The translations under genes and the position numbers were made by a program. This document shows, in pieces, positions 5,138-37,343 of a DNA stretch of 64,000 nucleotides. Numbering within the stretch: position 1 is the stretch's first letter; every line of letters starts with the position of its first letter. The notes beneath the pieces were generated by a model. It did not search any database. It saw only the letters and a list, made by a program, of their open reading frames with translations, and was not told the DNA's origin. Source of the DNA: Verrucomicrobiota bacterium (GTDB lineage: Bacteria > Verrucomicrobiota > Verrucomicrobiia > Chthoniobacterales > JAFAMB01); assembly GCA_019239825.1 (NCBI GenBank), contig JAFAZK010000145.1, forward strand, positions 1 through 64,000, in the 5' to 3' direction.

Positions 5138-5438
5138 AAGTTTGGTGGGGCGAGGCTCCCTTTTGGCCCCAAGAGGTTATCGAAGCCGCCGATGTGCTTA
5201 TTCCCAAGGTTTTGCTAGGACGGAAGACTCGCCGAGCCGGGATTTGCAGTGCGGCCGCGGATGAGCGGACAATCCGACTAGTTTACCTCACCATCTCTCC
5301 AGGCCGACCGAATGTAGCTGCAAAACGTTGACCCGCGGCTCGGCGCGTCCAGTGACCTTACAGGACCAGGTAACTCTATAGGGCTCAATTCTCTGCAGCC
5401 ACTTACAGGACGATCGGGAGCCTCGCCCCACCAAACTT
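5138..5438. repeat. family A nested-palindrome element, copy A1
   Basis: The 301-bp element is bounded by perfect 23-bp inverted arms (5138-5160 and 5416-5438) containing TTTGGTGGGGCGAGGCTCCC. An inner inverted pair GCCGAGCCG/CGGCTCGGC lies at 5231-5239 and 5336-5344, about 93 bp from each end, so the element is symmetric. The right end abuts the stop codon of the small lipoprotein gene at 5439. It has no convincing coding sequence. Related copies are at 27115, 28501 and 43133. Confidence 0.85.
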
Positions 5439-15917: not shown

Positions 15918-16030
15918 TCTCAGCCCCGCTCGCTAAAGAACGACGCAAGATGGATCAAGGCGCTTTTTGCAATCACGAACGGACCGTTAGCGTTCACAGC
16001 GATAGGCCGCAAGGACGTGAGGCCGGCGGC

Positions 16031-16310
16031 CTGGAGGGGGGCCGCTTTCGCCTGAGCTTAGTTGAACGCGCGTGGTTTACACGCTGCGCTTGCCTGGGAT
16101 GGCGAGGTGTTAGCAGGCGGCTCCCGCAAACGGCTCCTGACGCACCTAGGCACGCCGCATCTTGTCCCAACCAGGCAACGATGTTGGGTAAATTCACACG
16201 CTGGGTAATTCGCGGGAGCCGCCTGCTAGCCATAGTATCTGGACAGGCATGGCGCTGGGCTCCTAATACATCTGCTCGTCGTTCCCCAATCCAAAGCGGC
16301 TCCCCTCCAG
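16031..16310. repeat. family B nested-palindrome element, copy B1
   Basis: Outer arms 16031-16048 and 16293-16310 match CTGGAGGGGAGCCGCTTT with one mismatch. Inner arms 16111-16127 (TAGCAGGCGGCTCCCGC) and 16212-16228 are a perfect 17-bp inverted pair. The 280-bp element lies between the pump and channel genes and inside the longest open frame of the channel gene. Confidence 0.85.
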
Positions 16311-16330
16311 ACGCTGGGCATAAGTTAACG

Positions 16331-17833
16331 CTGGTAAACATTACAAAGGCGAAACGTCTGGTAAACGTATTGTGGCAATCGCTAATTCCGGTCTTGTTTG
16401 CTCCCAGTTGTCTCCATGCGCAGGGCATGGGCAGTCCAAAGCCGTCGCCGAGCCCCCTCGTCCAGAGTTCGACGAAAGCGACACCTTCGAAAACTAGCCG
16501 GGCGCTCAAACCGGTTACCCCACCTCCAAATATAAACGAAGGTCCACCAAAAAAACTTTCACTCAAGCAGGCAGAAGCTATCGCCCTTCGATATGCACCC
16601 TCACTGGGGGCTGCTTACTTCAATGCGCAAGCAGCCAAGGACGTTGTTAAAGAGGCCCGTTCTCAATTCTTTCCGCAAATCCAGGGCATCGTCACTGCGG
16701 TTGGAACTTCGAACGCGATCAAAAACGAATTCGGCGGAACGAATAGTTCTGTGCCCCAGATCCGGCTAGGTGCTTCCGGCGGACTCAACAATCCCACGAT
16801 TCTTAGCCGTGAATCTCAAGGGTTAAACATCACTCAGTTGATCTTTGATTTTGGCCGGACCGCTAATCTCACCGCCGCGGCCCACTTCGACGCATTATCT
16901 CAAGCTCAAAAAACGGAGTTAGTCCGGGCACAAGTCGTCTATCGAGTTGATCGTGCTTATCTGAACGTGCTCAAAGCGGAAGCTCTTTTGGATGTCGCGC
17001 AGCAAACCGTGTCAGACCGGCAAGTCTTATTCGATGACATCAAGGCTCTGGCCCAAAACAAATTGAAATCGGATCTGGATCAGAGCTTTGCTCAGGCTAA
17101 CCTCGACCAAGCAAAACAGCTGCTGCTCCAGACAGAGAACGCGGTGGGCGAAGCGTTCGCCGAGCTAAGCGCGGCACTCGGATACAAAATTGAGTACCGG
17201 TTCGAGCTATCGGAGCAACCGCTAACCCCATTCCCAAAAGAAACTGCAGACTCGCTCACCCAGTTGGCCTTAAGAATCCGACCTGACGTGATTGGCATGC
17301 GCGACCAAGTGCTTTCTGCCCAGAAACGGACATTGGCGGAAAGAGATGCTCGCTTGCCGAGCATCGCGGCCCTTGGAACGATCGGACGAACGCCGATAGG
17401 TGATCCCGGTGTCCAAGGTAATTACGCAGCAGCCGGTGTCGTGGTTCAGGTTCCGGTTTTTACCGGTGGGTTGCTTTCGTCTCGGCAAGACGAAGCCTTT
17501 TTGCGGGCAAATGCTGAGCAAAAGTCGCTGGATGATACCGAGACTCAGGTAGTTGCCGCCGTCCATGCGGCCTGGCTAGACGCTTCGACAGCGCTCAAGA
17601 ACATCGATGTCACCGAGGCGCTTGCCGCAAGCTCCGATCAAGCATTGATTCTGGCGGAAGCGCAATATCGGGCGGGTCAAACTTCGATCATCGAACTAAG
17701 CCAAGCTCAGCTGACAGATATTCAAGCCGAAATCTCCGCCGCCGCTGCGAAATACGATTACCAGATTCTGCGCACCGCCCTCGATTTTCAGGTGGGAACA
17801 ATCCAGTATGAAATCCCAAGGCCAGCTAAGTAA
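16331..17833 (+). CDS. TolC-like outer membrane efflux channel
   Basis: From about 16540 the protein is an OEP-family channel with two repeats of long helices (LKQAEAIALRYAPSLGAAYF, QAQKTELVRAQVVYRVDRAY) and short beta strands. A signal peptide is clear at KAKRLVNVLWQSLIPVLFAP then SCLHA. The open frame extends up to an ATG at 15950, and an ATG also occurs at 16180, but both starts would translate repeat B1 ahead of the signal peptide. The only starts placing the signal peptide at the N-terminus are non-standard (CTG at 16331 or ATT at 16340); TTG at 16370 would remove its basic part. I give 16331 as a minimal boundary; the true start is unresolved. Confidence 0.82.
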   Translation: MVNITKAKRLVNVLWQSLIPVLFAPSCLHAQGMGSPKPSPSPLVQSSTKATPSKTSRALKPVTPPPNINEGPPKKLSLKQAEAIALRYAPSLGAAYFNAQAAKDVVKEARSQFFPQIQGIVTAVGTSNAIKNEFGGTNSSVPQIRLGASGGLNNPTILSRESQGLNITQLIFDFGRTANLTAAAHFDALSQAQKTELVRAQVVYRVDRAYLNVLKAEALLDVAQQTVSDRQVLFDDIKALAQNKLKSDLDQSFAQANLDQAKQLLLQTENAVGEAFAELSAALGYKIEYRFELSEQPLTPFPKETADSLTQLALRIRPDVIGMRDQVLSAQKRTLAERDARLPSIAALGTIGRTPIGDPGVQGNYAAAGVVVQVPVFTGGLLSSRQDEAFLRANAEQKSLDDTETQVVAAVHAAWLDASTALKNIDVTEALAASSDQALILAEAQYRAGQTSIIELSQAQLTDIQAEISAAAAKYDYQILRTALDFQVGTIQYEIPRPAK

Positions 17834-17933: not shown

Positions 17934-18236
17934 CTGGAGGGGAGCCGCTTTGCAATGTGGCAGCTCTGTCGGCTGTTAGCGGGCGGCTCCCGAGAACGTC
18001 TCTACGCGTCGCAGTTCAAGCGGCTGTGTCCTACTCGACTCCAATAAGCGAACACGTTGGGCAACACGGCACGCTAGGCGATTCCCGGGAATTACCAGCG
18101 TAATGTTCTGTCCATCGCGTCGATGCGATTGCGATTGAGACCGCGGCCGATAGAACTGCTACACGTTGAGACGTTCCCGGGAGCCGCCTGCTAACAATCG
18201 ATAGAGCTCCCACATTGAAAAGCGGCTCCCCTCCAG
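17934..18236. repeat. family B nested-palindrome element, copy B2
   Basis: Outer arms 17934-17960 and 18210-18236 are inverted with one mismatch in 27 bp. Inner arms at about 17975-18002 and 18168-18195 match with two mismatches in 28. The arms sit symmetrically about 41 bp from each end. The short ORFs within are translations of the palindrome. The rest of the gap (17834-18322) holds nothing else I recognise. Confidence 0.88.
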
Positions 18237-22630: not shown

Positions 22631-22776
22631 CGCTCCTAACGGAGCTGGTCGCTCTCTACATTACCCGTTGCTATAAAGATTTCGCTCCTCCGGAGCTAGG
22701 CATGGGATCGGCTGAATCAAACCAGAACGAAATCAAGTTTTTCAACGCCAGCTCCGGAGGAGCGAAATCTTTATAG
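22631..22776. repeat. R-family repeats including a perfect inverted pair
   Basis: A short copy lies at 22631-22648. Full copies at 22671-22697 and 22750-22776 are perfect 27-bp inverted repeats of each other. The right copy overlaps the end of the HAD gene and supplies its stop codon. The remaining 22254-22630 contains the upstream region of the LamB-like gene and no supported gene. Confidence 0.8.
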
Positions 22777-23544
22777 CGCCGGACAGATCCTACGGAGTGC
22801 TTCGGCGACGCCGTCTCCACCAGCTTGTTCTGCTACGTAACCGCCGTGACATCTAACCCTTTCTTTGACCTCATCCACACTGTTGGCGGGACAAGCCAAA
22901 TGACGGGCGATCTCAGAGTCGAGCATCGGTAAATCGTTGAAGTTGTCCCCTGCGGCAAAAGTCTCATGCGGTTCAACTCCTAGATGAGTTTGCAGCGCTT
23001 TGAGTACAGACCCTTTATGATAAAACGAGTGGCAAAACCGGAGATAAATGGAGTTTCTCTGGAAAGACAAATTTGCGACCGGCCGGCATTTCAAGCGCAG
23101 GTATTCTACGGTGCGGTCCATCTCATCGTTGTTTTGCGCAATCAATCCAACCATCCGCCCATGCTCCCGATAGGAACGCACCTGTCGCTCATTCGTGATG
23201 TAAGCCTCGATCTCAGCCAAAAGTATAGCGGCCTCGATGTAGAGTTCCTCGTGATCTTGGTGGCATCGTTCATTCCATTCGGATAACGGTTCCCACCCTT
23301 GTTTCGTCCTGCAAAAGACCTCTCGTTCGGTCGTCAGTGCAAAGTCGGGTATCGCAGGGAAAAGTTCCATCCCTTGATCCACCAGGGCCAAATTGCGCCC
23401 CGTGTTAATAGCCAGCAGCGCGCCTCCTTTTCTCAGCGCGGCCAGACAACGCACTAATTCTTCACTAACCGCCGCTTTCCCATCCAACCAAGGCCCGACC
23501 ATGGTGCCGTCGAAATCTAAGCTGAGAAGGCGGAGGTTAGTCAT
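22771..23544 (-). CDS. HAD-superfamily phosphatase, Cof/IIB type
   Basis: The 257-residue protein has HAD motif I (LSLDFDGTMVG, nucleophile Asp), motif II (LLAINTGRN), motif III Lys (HKGSVLKALQ) and motif IV (FAAGDNFNDLPML). The cap between motifs II and III is of the C2B type found in Cof-like sugar or cofactor phosphatases. The final codons and TAA stop are contributed by an R-family repeat, so the C-terminus may have been trimmed. No operon partner is evident; an inverted micro-repeat separates it from the gspF gene upstream in sequence. Confidence 0.88.
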   Translation of the reverse strand: MTNLRLLSLDFDGTMVGPWLDGKAAVSEELVRCLAALRKGGALLAINTGRNLALVDQGMELFPAIPDFALTTEREVFCRTKQGWEPLSEWNERCHQDHEELYIEAAILLAEIEAYITNERQVRSYREHGRMVGLIAQNNDEMDRTVEYLRLKCRPVANLSFQRNSIYLRFCHSFYHKGSVLKALQTHLGVEPHETFAAGDNFNDLPMLDSEIARHLACPANSVDEVKERVRCHGGYVAEQAGGDGVAEALRRICPAL

Positions 23545-23559
23545 GCTAGAAACGGGTGG

Positions 23560-23732
23560 GAGGTGGCTGGAAAGTAATCAGTAGGTCAGTAATCAGTGCT
23601 CCACGAGCGACGGCTGAGCTTTGGAAATACTGGCTTTATGCAAACCGTCAAGTTCCGAACCGGATCTCAACATCGTGACAACTCTTACTGACTACTGGCT
23701 CACTGATTACTGATTACTAATCCGAGCCACCT
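23560..23732. repeat. inverted micro-repeat hairpin (AGTAATCAGTA type)
   Basis: Left arm 23560-23602 contains AGTAATCAGTAGGTCAGTAA; right arm 23686-23732 contains its inverse (CTGATTACTGATTACTAATC). The homology extends outward into GAGGTGGCT/AGCCACCTC. The arms enclose about 85 nt between the HAD and gspF genes. Confidence 0.75.
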
Positions 23733-25019: not shown

Positions 25020-25188
25020 GTGAGAGGTGAGAAGTGAGAAGTGAGAGGTGAGAGGTAACGACTGCAGGGGCTCTATTCGTAATTCCGAGCTTACGGATCA
25101 TAAAAGTTCTTCGGTACGATTCGTTTCGTTCGGTTTGAACGGCTGGCACGTAGAACCACCAATCACCTCTCACGTCTCACTTCTCACG
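25020..25188. repeat. inverted micro-repeat hairpin (GTGAGAGGTGAGAAG type)
   Basis: Left arm 25020-25060 consists of 7-8 bp GTGAGAGG/GTGAGAA units; right arm 25161-25188 is the inverse (ACCTCTCACGTCTCACTTCT). It occupies most of the gap between gspF and gspE and would form a long stem in a shared transcript. Confidence 0.75.
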
Positions 25189-27114: not shown

Positions 27115-27409
27115 CTTTGGTGGGGCGAGGCTCCCTAACGGCCCTATCATGTTAACGAAACCACAACAGTATTCTCGATCCCAACCTTCTGCTATGCCAA
27201 GACCCGTGCCGAGCCGCGGGTATCAGCGTGGCTGCGGATAATCGCCCGACCGCATAATCCACGCTGCCATTCTCGCACCAAGACCATTGCTGCGATGCTC
27301 AGACTCACGGCTCGGCGCGTCTATTGGCCTAACAAGATCAGGTGCCGTCATCGCGGTGGATTTCTTCGCAAACACGATAGAAACGTCCGGGAGCCTCGCC
27401 CTACCAAAA
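27115..27409. repeat. family A nested-palindrome element, copy A2
   Basis: Outer arms CTTTGGTGGGGCGAGGCTCC (27115-27135) and the inverse at 27389-27409 differ at one or two bases. Inner GCCGAGCCG/CGGCTCGGC arms lie at 27208-27216 and 27308-27316. The element is about 295 bp. The preceding 26892-27114 shows a weak hairpin near 26964 but no gene. Confidence 0.82.
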
Positions 27410-28364: not shown

Positions 28365-28404
28365 AAGGCATCGAAAGGCAAGAAAAAGTCGCTTATCCCC
28401 AAGC

Positions 28405-28841
28405 GGAGGGGCGTTGCATTCCGCTTTCGCAGCTAAAACGGATGTCGACGCTCGGAAAGTGTTTTCAGGTTTGTCGTGCGGAGAGACGCGACGCCCGGGA
28501 ACTTTGGTGGGGCGAGGCTCCCGAACGTTATATGGTGTTTGCGAAGAATCCACTGTGGTGGCGCCGCCTGATCTTGTTAGGCCGATCGACGCGCCGAGCC
28601 ATGGGTCTGAGCGTTGCAGCACCATTTAGCTTTGCCGCGAGATTTGGTGGCGTGGATTAGGCGGTCGGACGGTTAGCCGCAACCACACTGAATACCCGCG
28701 GCTCGGCACGGGTTTTGGCATCCGGGGGCGCTGGGATCGAGTACACTTGCGGCTTCGTTAACATCATAGGGTGATAAGGGAGCCTCGCCCCACCAAAGTC
28801 GACCCAATTTTAGCTGCGAAAGCTGAATGCAACGCCTCTCC
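28405..28841. repeat. family C inverted arms enclosing a family A element
   Basis: Arms 28405-28438 and 28808-28841 share CGTTGCATTC and CTTTCGCAGCTAAAA and match in inverted orientation with two mismatches in 34 bp. They enclose copy A3 and form a compound palindrome of about 437 bp between aroE and gltX. Confidence 0.75.
28501..28799. repeat. family A nested-palindrome element, copy A3
   Basis: Perfect 22-bp inverted arms lie at 28501-28522 and 28778-28799 (core TTTGGTGGGGCGAGGCTCCC), with inner arms GCCGAGCC/GGCTCGGC. Length is 299 bp. It is nested inside the family C arms. Confidence 0.85.
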
Positions 28842-28897
28842 GGTCTGGGATCAGCGACACTTTCGGGGCTGCGGATCTTAATTTCGGATTTCGGGAA

Positions 28898-30338: not shown

Positions 30339-30619
30339 CTGGAGGGGAGCCGCTTTTGCCCGTCCTAAGTTGAACGGACGTTCTTGGAGAAATGCGTGTA
30401 CCAGACTGAGCGTGTGCCTGGCAGGCGGCTCCCGCTAACGTCCTGAGATCTCGCCACCGATCACATGGTCGTTCGGTTCGAAAGATCAAACACCGTTCGG
30501 TTAATTTACGCGTCGAGACGTTTCCGGGAGCCGCCTGCTAAAGGACTATGAGTTGTGCTACGATTGTTCGCCTTGTCCTGCCGGCGGTTCCGCCACATTC
30601 AAAAGCGGCTCCCCTCCAG
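30339..30619. repeat. family B nested-palindrome element, copy B3
   Basis: Perfect 19-bp outer arms CTGGAGGGGAGCCGCTTTT lie at 30339-30357 and 30601-30619. Inner arms GGCAGGCGGCTCCCG and CGGGAGCCGCCTGC lie near 30420-30435 and 30525-30538. Length is 281 bp. It fills the gap between gltX and the DUF6600-like gene. Confidence 0.87.
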
Positions 30620-30701: not shown

Positions 30702-32507
30702 ATGTTGCCGCGCGTGCGAAAACTCCTGGCCCTGGTTTTTCTGATCGCGATTTCTCTCGTGGGGTCGGTAGCCAACCCGTCGCCAACCCCGACTCAACGT
30801 CCCCTCCCCCTGGCAATCGGCAAAAGCCCTTCGAACGACCCCAGACCGGCTTCTACAAAGATTTCGCTCCTACGGAGCTGGACCGTCATCCGGGGCGTTA
30901 AGTCAGCGGTCCCACCACGGCCTGACGTTTTCCGCGTTCTGTTATCGCAGACGCGTTCGTTGTCACTCCAAAACTCCATTGCTCCAACACTCCAATACTC
31001 CGTCACTCCTCCTCCAATCCACTCCTCCACGGTATACGAGGAATCCCCAGTCCCAAACCAGGCTGACCTCAACGACTCCTACGACGTATTCTACCACCAA
31101 CTATCTGCTGATGGACATTGGCTCTTTGCGGAGAATTTCGGGTATGTCTATCAGCCCAAAGTAGCCGAGAAAGACCCGAATTGGCGCCCTTACACGAACG
31201 GGCATTGGGAGGCGACAGACCGCGGTTGGTATTGGGATACCGACGAGCCGTTCGGTTGGGCTACCTATCACTATGGACGCTGGGCAAACATCGACGGCAC
31301 CGGATGGGTTTGGACGCCCGGGATCGATTGGTCGCCAGCTTGGGTCTCATGGCGAATCTGCGACAACGGTTTTGTCGGCTGGGCTCCCCTACCGCCGGAA
31401 TGTCCCCGACCTAGCGATGCCGTCCCGATCGGGAGTTGGTGCGATTCCTATGCCGATATCGGACCCGAGGCGTTTTGTTTTTTGCCGTTCAACGCGTGGT
31501 TCAAACCAAGCTATGTCGGGTTATTTGCTCCGGCATCTCAGAATCGGGAACTGATTAACGCGAGCCGTAATGTTACCAACATTTCGGCAAGCAAAACGAC
31601 GATCAGCGACTTTGGTCCCCGCCCAGACTTCATTGCCCAAGAAACGGGACAAGAAGTTAAGACCTATCAACTTCATTACTCTGAAGTCAGGGGACAACAT
31701 AATTTCTCGAGGTCCATCAACGGCAATCTGCTGAATGTCGAGGGCCCTGCGGTCAAGCTGAAGGCGAATGCCACTAAGGTGCCCACGGTCATAAAGACAA
31801 TCGTAAGGCCTGCCGTCAATAAGGGCTGGAACGGTTTGACCAAAGAAGACATCGACGGTGTGCATCAGAAATATGCTTCGGAGGCGCACATCCCGAGACA
31901 TCTGCCAAATAAGCCAATCGAGCGGGTCAATCTGGTGCCAAGCGCAACCCCAGCGGTGGCCCGGTCAGCCAGTGATCAGAAACAAAAAGAACCCAAGGAG
32001 CACAAGGCGACCGCGAACGCGAGCCCTCAAAAAGAGACCAAAGAAAAGACGGCAACCGCCTCAGCCCACAAGAAGACCGCGAAGCATAAAACGGCCTCCG
32101 AATCGGAGGACGAAAGCGGTTCGAAGGGAGAGAGCAAATCGAAGGTAAAATCAAAGACGGCTAAGGCATCTAAGGAGACTCAGGATACTGACGAATCTAA
32201 GACTCCAAACAAGAAGACGGCCAAGAGTGGCAGCGCTAAGAGCGACGGCCAGTCAAAGAGCACAAAGACCTCGAAGAGCTCGGGCGGATCGAAGGGCGAA
32301 GATTCCGGGGCCGAAGGCTCGAAGAGCAGCACTGGCTCGAAAGATGAAGGGTCGAAGAGCGGTTCGAAGAAAAGTTCGAACGGTGAAGACTCCAGGGGCG
32401 ATGGGTCCAAGAAAAGCGGAAGCTCGAAGCGTGAAGGACCTAAGAGTGAATCGACGAGCGAAGGCCCGAAGAGAAGCCAGAAGAAGTCTTCAGACGAAAA
32501 AGACTAA
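30702..32507 (+). CDS. secreted DUF6600/YXWGXW-like protein with a long Lys/Ser-rich tail
   Basis: The start at 30702 (MLPRVRKLLALVFLIAISLV) gives a signal peptide; the longer frame to 30555 would begin in repeat B3. The 601-residue protein has a Trp/Gly/Tyr-rich central domain (GHWEATDRGWYWDTDEPFGW, YGRWANIDGTGWVWTPGIDW, FVGWAPLPPECP) of the DUF6600 kind. About 190 residues of low complexity rich in Lys, Ser, Thr, Gly and Glu follow. Between the signal peptide and the domain, residues 51-60 are encoded by an R-family repeat and about 89-110 by an ACTCC micro-repeat, so this linker seems to tolerate insertions. Function is unknown; the strongly basic tail may bind nucleic acid or surface polymers. 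Confidence 0.8.
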   Translation: MLPRVRKLLALVFLIAISLVGSVANPSPTPTQRPLPLAIGKSPSNDPRPASTKISLLRSWTVIRGVKSAVPPRPDVFRVLLSQTRSLSLQNSIAPTLQYSVTPPPIHSSTVYEESPVPNQADLNDSYDVFYHQLSADGHWLFAENFGYVYQPKVAEKDPNWRPYTNGHWEATDRGWYWDTDEPFGWATYHYGRWANIDGTGWVWTPGIDWSPAWVSWRICDNGFVGWAPLPPECPRPSDAVPIGSWCDSYADIGPEAFCFLPFNAWFKPSYVGLFAPASQNRELINASRNVTNISASKTTISDFGPRPDFIAQETGQEVKTYQLHYSEVRGQHNFSRSINGNLLNVEGPAVKLKANATKVPTVIKTIVRPAVNKGWNGLTKEDIDGVHQKYASEAHIPRHLPNKPIERVNLVPSATPAVARSASDQKQKEPKEHKATANASPQKETKEKTATASAHKKTAKHKTASESEDESGSKGESKSKVKSKTAKASKETQDTDESKTPNKKTAKSGSAKSDGQSKSTKTSKSSGGSKGEDSGAEGSKSSTGSKDEGSKSGSKKSSNGEDSRGDGSKKSGSSKREGPKSESTSEGPKRSQKKSSDEKD

Positions 32508-33016: not shown

Positions 33017-33340
33017 CTAGAGGGAGCCGCTTTTGACTGTTGCTCGGAACCTGAGCTGACCGGGCAAATAGGCATTGTACGGCCGAGACGTTTCCCTGGC
33101 AGGCGGCTCCTGGGAACGTCCCACAAAATGTTTCACCTAGTGACCTGTCGGCGAAATAACATAGCCTTCGCGGACAGGTCACTAGTCGCGCGGCCGGTCG
33201 GAAACAATCGACGGCGGTAGATTGTAAGGGCGTCAGGGCCGATTTCGGGAGCCGCCTGCTAAGCACACGCCTACGCCGCAAACGCCGGGTTTCAGAAATT
33301 TGCGTGCAAACGGGCTCGGGTAAAAGCGGCTCCCCTCCAG
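33017..33340. repeat. family B nested-palindrome element, copy B4
   Basis: The left arm 33017-33034 is a slightly diverged CTAGAGGGAGCCGCTTTT; the right arm 33322-33340 is the standard inverse. Inner arms lie at 33097-33120 and 33245-33261. A third central pair CTAGTGACCTGTC/GACAGGTCACTAG lies at 33138-33150 and 33173-33185. Length is about 324 bp. Confidence 0.82.
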
Positions 33341-37155: not shown

Positions 37156-37343
37156 GTGCCTAGAGTAAAGCAGTAAGCAGTAAATAGTCGATAGTAGCTA
37201 GAAATTACCGTAACCAATAGACGAGTTAGAAGAACTAGGAAAATCAGTGGTAGTAAAACAGGCAGTCGTCTGCCGGCTCCTCCTAACTCCTGAGCTGCTC
37301 ACTGACTACTGCTTACTGTTTACTGCTTACTGCTTAGAGCCCC
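37156..37343 (+). repeat. inverted micro-repeat hairpin directly upstream of pncA
   Basis: Left arm 37156-37198 (AAAGCAGTAAGCAGTAAATA) and right arm 37292-37343 (TACTGCTTACTGTTTACTGC) are inverted. A weaker inner pair (GAGTTAGAAG/TCCTAACTC) lies between them. The right arm ends 2 nt before the pncA ATG, the same arrangement as at pncB with unrelated unit sequence. Confidence 0.75.

Follow-up and report, generated by a model that had tools for sequence, protein, structure and literature searches.

Family B of a Verrucomicrobiota genome is probably a REPIN population with long-loop REPs and a RAYT gene between them

Family B, a set of nested inverted repeats in the genome of a Verrucomicrobiota bacterium, is very probably (we put it at about 0.88) a REPIN population, made up of non-autonomous REP doublets for which a RAYT found between B REPs is the likeliest enzyme. 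By definition, REPINs are pairs of REPs in inverted orientation that are associated with RAYTs (Bertels and Rainey 2011, PMC3116915). The elements of family B are extragenic, are present in some relatives and absent in others at orthologous sites, and often sit in the centre of larger palindromes.

Copies of family B in the window and in the genome

The window, that is, the whole 64,000-nt stretch of DNA that was analysed, is contig C316 of the source genome (G000; 6.67 Mb in 349 contigs). The first-pass annotation had reported four copies of family B in it, and all four are present where it placed them, with the arms that it described. B1 (16031..16310) is a REPIN of two facing long-loop (L) REPs, with loops of 64 and 66 nt, a centre of 86 nt and a left outer arm that carries a single change (GGGGGGCCGC). 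B2 (17934..18236) is built from two short-loop (S) REPs, with two loops of 27 nt and a centre of 185 nt. Its left REP (17934..17993, + strand) reads CT, foot GGAG, stem GGGAGCCGC, loop, stem GCGGCTCCC, and its right REP (18178..18236, - strand) has the same anatomy on the opposite strand. This copy had been said to be symmetrical to the base, and its core-to-core spacing is 43 bp on each side (17940-17983 and 18179-18222). The fold of B2 is a single long rod (-108.3 kcal/mol, z -13.8). B3 (30339..30619) is of the L/L type (loops 64 and 63 nt, centre 90 nt), and full-length relatives of it exist elsewhere in G000 and in the related genomes G002 and G003 (69-78% over ~290 bp). In B4 (33017..33340), also a REPIN, the left outer arm is degenerate (CTAGAGGGAGCCGC) and the left inner arm is changed; a separate 19-bp inverted repeat (33137-33185, 95%, 11-nt loop) occupies its centre.

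The window holds 17 occurrences of the nine-base core GGGAGCCGC, where 1.0 would be expected, and no shuffle reached this count. Over the whole genome, the 14-mer TGGAGGGGAGCCGC, with at most one mismatch, yields 224 matches on the plus and 204 on the minus strand (428 in total), and its reversed control yields 0 and 2 on the two strands. Family B is a family of small, presumably mobile DNA hairpins with roughly 200 copies in this genome. Among the matches listed in the named collection, exact arm matches are all in three Verrucomicrobiota MAGs (JAFAIO, JAFAHI and JAFAVN).

Elements were counted in 81 stretches (1.365 Mb), picked mostly for holding hits, in which outer (O) and inner (I) arms were tokenised. 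The complete order O+ I+ I- O- is the commonest arrangement there, with 56 elements; the same stretches hold 18 solo halves, and head-to-tail arrays occur as well (for example C261:360-1400). The fixed order, together with the fixed spacings, excludes the alternative raised with the original description, namely that the palindromes are short opposite repeats paired by chance.

Each half of a B element is a REP

The outer arm contains GGGAGCCGC and the inner arm GCGGCTCCC, which are complementary, so that each half of an element is a hairpin. Since the outer arm pairs with the inner to form a single stem, each half is one REP, and a family B element is two REPs facing each other, that is, a REPIN. 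The two-tier layout first proposed keeps its arms and their order, but it reads better as two facing hairpins than as a palindrome within a palindrome. That each half is a hairpin of its own, that loops come in two discrete lengths and that the palindrome often extends past the element had escaped the first reading.

A REP consists of CT, the foot GGAG, a 9-bp stem and a large loop. The stretch between the arms measures either 27-28 nt (S) or ~62-66 nt (L), with almost nothing intermediate in G000 and three related MAGs, and the whole REP is ~60 (63) or ~97-100 nt long. Despite these fixed length classes the loop sequence is highly variable in all four species; the element centre, mostly 83-97 nt long, is also variable in sequence. 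Conservation at the core arm positions is ~90-98% over the 358 halves compared and drops outside CT-GGAG; CT stands directly before GGAG in 269 of these halves, and within the foot every position is 94-96% conserved.

Compensated differences support the O/I stem. Family C carries the stem GGGCGTTGC/GCGACGCCC at positions that match the B stem, and a short-loop REP of a sister genus, GGAG-GGGAGCTGC-TT-GCAGCTCC, shows a compensated change in the corresponding stem. In family B itself double changes occur at three stem positions, all of them Watson-Crick, a weak count given that shuffles reach a mean of 0.44 and a maximum of 3. Lone halves and direct tandem arrays argue that the half is the unit. 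In single-strand folding B elements form long rods, and folding of the whole element prefers one long rod to two separate REP hairpins; O/O and I/I pairing therefore competes with O/I pairing. Given this folding, either the rod or two separate REP hairpins could be the substrate of the enzyme.

B elements are extragenic and polymorphic among relatives

Called ORFs are overlapped by 5 of the 56 B elements and by 81% of random placements, which makes the family extragenic; the ORFs were called with a simple codon model, and some of the overlaps may reflect over-extended starts. B1, inside the called ORF 15950-17833, is a possible example. Neighbouring genes show no orientation bias (30 co-directional, 10 convergent and 7 divergent pairs, against 185, 55 and 57 in the intergenic background). 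A comparison of insertion sites between relatives, proposed with the first description as a check, reveals presence and absence at orthologous sites, many B sites being empty.

These data bear on the possibility that B elements are terminators, mRNA stabilisers or structured RNAs selected locus by locus, the link to a RAYT being secondary. Such a host function would agree with strong predicted folding, with arms conserved above loops (median nearest-neighbour identities of 0.94 and 0.74) and with the nearness of gene 3' ends (median distance 54.5 bp), but it does not sit well with the lack of preference for convergent gene pairs. Furthermore, loops fold like shuffled sequence (mean z of 0.01 for L loops, and S loops do no better), a search of Rfam gave no family match at gathering score, relatives are empty at many sites, and one orthologous pair shows decay of the arms along with the rest of the element. 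We consider a host function improbable.

A RAYT gene lies between family B arms

An ORF at G000:C227:6630-7043, at least 138 aa long, is enclosed by inverted S halves of family B. It scores 86.9 bits against NCBIfam NF047646 (REP-associated tyrosine transposase; cut-off 80), is barely over the cut-off of Pfam Y1_Tnp, and aligns to the TnpA-REP 4er8 (E 1.4e-7). Its motifs are HIH, WQ and YVRNNP, and PEHIH and YVR[NKL]NP are kept in four orthologues. This B RAYT was missing from an initial family search of the genome.

The gene is found between inverted B arms in four species, G000, G001, G002 and G003, with orthologue identities of 82% in G002, 82% in G003 and 66% in G001. The arms around it are S halves in G000 and G002 and L halves in G001; in G003 outer arms only were recognised. 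It adjoins the same peptidase gene in G000 and G001, and G002 aligns across the locus; this common locus indicates vertical inheritance. The B RAYT is under purifying selection, with dN/dS of 0.10-0.19 for G000, G002 and G003 (values for G001 are unreliable, synonymous sites being saturated). G003 has an additional RAYT copy with three stops, also between B arms, and one intact B-type RAYT was found per genome.

Other candidates were considered. An IS200/IS605 insertion sequence would be a mobile multi-copy transposase with ends, and what we found is a single intact B RAYT at a locus common across relatives. The genome's three strongest Y1_Tnp genes (L026-L028) were rejected as partners of B, their flanks holding other short palindromes. 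In the window, the short palindromes TTTCGCTCC-TACGGAGC at 22665-22782 and near 30860 resemble those beside one of these genes (L026, on C143).

A conventional MITE origin, by deletion from a DDE transposon whose transposase sites, terminal and subterminal, are 18 bp long, would account for terminal inverted repeats, near-constant length and full-length subfamilies. However, a RAYT is the sole gene that turned up between B arms, and this in four species, target duplications of 3-12 bp are not in excess over chance at 56 elements, and the end of a DDE transposon leaves lone halves and head-to-tail arrays unexplained, which makes this origin very unlikely.

No comparable RAYT was found in seven genomes of sister genera (G004-G010), where the best match is partial (60.6 bits), and this absence weighs little, as copies may be missed in metagenome-assembled genomes. 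Counts of B arms follow the same boundary: they are at background in the sister genomes save G009 and G010, which have a short-loop REP relative and a few B-like arms. The B-like arms on short contigs of G010 (L273 580; L280 298, a full L-type half) may stem from contamination or transfer.

B elements are often nested in larger palindromes

The sequence flanking a B element on its left recurs as an inverted copy on its right, with a pair specific to the locus (z = 17 at 60 bp). A flank symmetry score of at least 15 is reached by 36% of the elements, which are thus centred in a larger palindrome, compared with 3% of controls between elements, 9% of random intergenic points and 2% of controls with a 280-bp gap. 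Filled and empty orthologous sites were compared by split alignments, which show the nesting at a few sites: where B sits inside a long palindrome in G000, G003 has a long palindrome alone (L260, L078), and the same holds for G002 at L171 and L109. Family A elements, too, are nested in palindromes that occur without them in relatives. At a single orthologous site either insertion or precise loss would fit, and tolerance rather than targeting could explain the enrichment of palindromes around B.

That the palindromes formed locally, through fold-back repair or template switching, with flank symmetry as a result, would suit locus-specific inverted repeats in the flanks and a genome rich in low-complexity inverted repeats, but not the recurrence of arms and loop subfamilies across hundreds of unrelated loci, outer palindromes without B in relatives (L260, L171) or a single outer element with its centre occupied by different families, and we dismiss it as highly improbable.

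Inverted repeats from low-complexity runs (GTGAGAAGTGAGAGG, AAGCAGTAAGCAGTAA) lie in the window at 25027-25187, 37168-37335 and 23573-23711, and no RAYT was found for them. Because some low-complexity flanking palindromes are of this kind, another process also makes palindromes here. Separately, an intergenic site can carry B elements of different loop type in different species, S in one and L in the other (L078 19526-19739 and L221; window 17934-18236 and G002:C683), which suggests insertion hot spots or replacement.

Families A and C have RAYTs of their own

Families A and B had been proposed to share a mechanism. Our results support this: their ends differ, and their RAYTs are homologous, each lying between its own inverted arms; mobilisation itself we infer. 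In the window, family A, which has its own RAYT, is represented at 5138..5438 (arms TTTGGTGGGGCGAGGCTCCC) and at 27116..27408, a site that is empty in G003. A third A element (28501-28799) occupies the centre of an outer REPIN of family C (28382..28864); at this site G003 is without A and C, and what G002 carries there is a B element together with a C arm.

The A RAYT (G000:C327) is 38% identical to the B RAYT and lies between inverted A arms, and for the RAYT of G002:C427 one A arm is seen, downstream. The C RAYT of G000 (G000:C337:53596-54000, equivalent to L239 1501-1905) carries one TAG stop between family C arms; C RAYTs without a stop lie between C arms in G002:C503 and G003:C350. C RAYTs are 52-56% identical to the B RAYT. 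Further RAYTs, in G003:C312 and G002:C163, are flanked by other inverted repeats, and the repeat of G003:C312, GTGGAGCGCTGCCTCGCTTGCGAGGCC, is similar to the outer palindrome that encloses the B elements of L097 and L118.

Discussion

Read as a REPIN-RAYT system, family B would work by analogy with characterised TnpA-REP enzymes. The RAYT would bind the folded REP on single-stranded DNA, read the GGAG foot and cleave beside it. The foot takes part in the choice of cleavage site, and A3G4 matches CT in one system (PMC8266576); A3 and G4 of the B foot should likewise pick out CT, which makes the CT before GGAG the expected site here. The enzyme would then copy or move the doublet to new extragenic sites that are single-stranded or hairpin-forming, often within other palindromes. 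Paralogous RAYTs would pair with families A and C likewise. For binding, cleavage, the single-strand intermediate and target choice we rely on this analogy. The foot, GGAG and not GT[AG]G, counts against the reading, as do loops far longer than those of described REPs.

We also put forward, tentatively and as possible rather than probable, that RAYT-driven REPINs preferentially enter hairpin loops, including those of other REPIN families, and so build intergenic regions up into onions of unrelated palindromes, and that the loop lengths of ~27 and ~64 nt are set by the geometry of the RAYT-DNA complex and not by sequence.

Family B resembles the REPIN-RAYT system of PMC3116915 in that inverted doublets are the main unit, spacers are variable, location is extragenic, solo REPs and clusters occur and the RAYT is flanked by its own REPs. 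On the other hand, the GI and GII 16-mers of that system start 71 and 110 bp apart and the family B doublet spans ~210-290 bp, each of its REPs having a long loop of fixed length class. Under a broad definition of REPIN-RAYT systems family B belongs, judging by copy number, inverted pairs, the flanked RAYT and the predicted HUH and catalytic tyrosine; under a strict GTAG-REP definition its foot and length exclude it.

Among RAYT subclasses, most of those bearing REPs have GT[AG]G feet, and the hairpins of some classes are without them (PMC6006769). Family B shares features with the REPtron of TnpA-Y1 subclass 2.4 (PMC6006769), a likeness rather than a formal assignment: both have WQ, Y-x-x-N-N-P, three G-C pairs at the stem base, a foot plus stem of 13 nt and a REP family for each RAYT, whereas B has EHIH instead of NH[IFV]H, GGAG instead of GT[AG]G and a very long loop. 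REPs measure 20-40 bp and the spacers of their dimers mostly 20-100 bp; TIRtrons carry long TIRs, which are sometimes double palindromic (Di Nocera 2013, PMC3733652). Like B, TIRtrons/TIRYTs place a RAYT-like gene between long inverted repeats that are partly self-complementary and occur as repeat families as well; going by the text of that paper, the repeats flanking the B RAYT differ in keeping a REP-like foot and stem. The GTAG REPs of Opitutus terrae (PMC3733652) share with B the phylum (Verrucomicrobia), several REP families per genome and the formation of dimers, but are of the short GTAG class, and the available text of that paper mentions no long-loop form in the phylum. The new features of family B are its REPs of 63 or 100 nt against 20-40, the GGAG foot in place of GT[AG]G, and the onion-like nesting.

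How RAYTs spread REPs and how sites are chosen are not settled in the field. In this genus a single genome has several parallel RAYT-REP families, an enlarged REP combines one stem with two fixed loop sizes, a short-loop relative exists in the sister genus, and orthologous sites occur both filled and empty; with all of this, stem recognition, foot choice (GGAG versus GTAG) and target choice become testable. Finally, some of the long intergenic palindromes of these soil bacteria can be traced concretely to the nesting.
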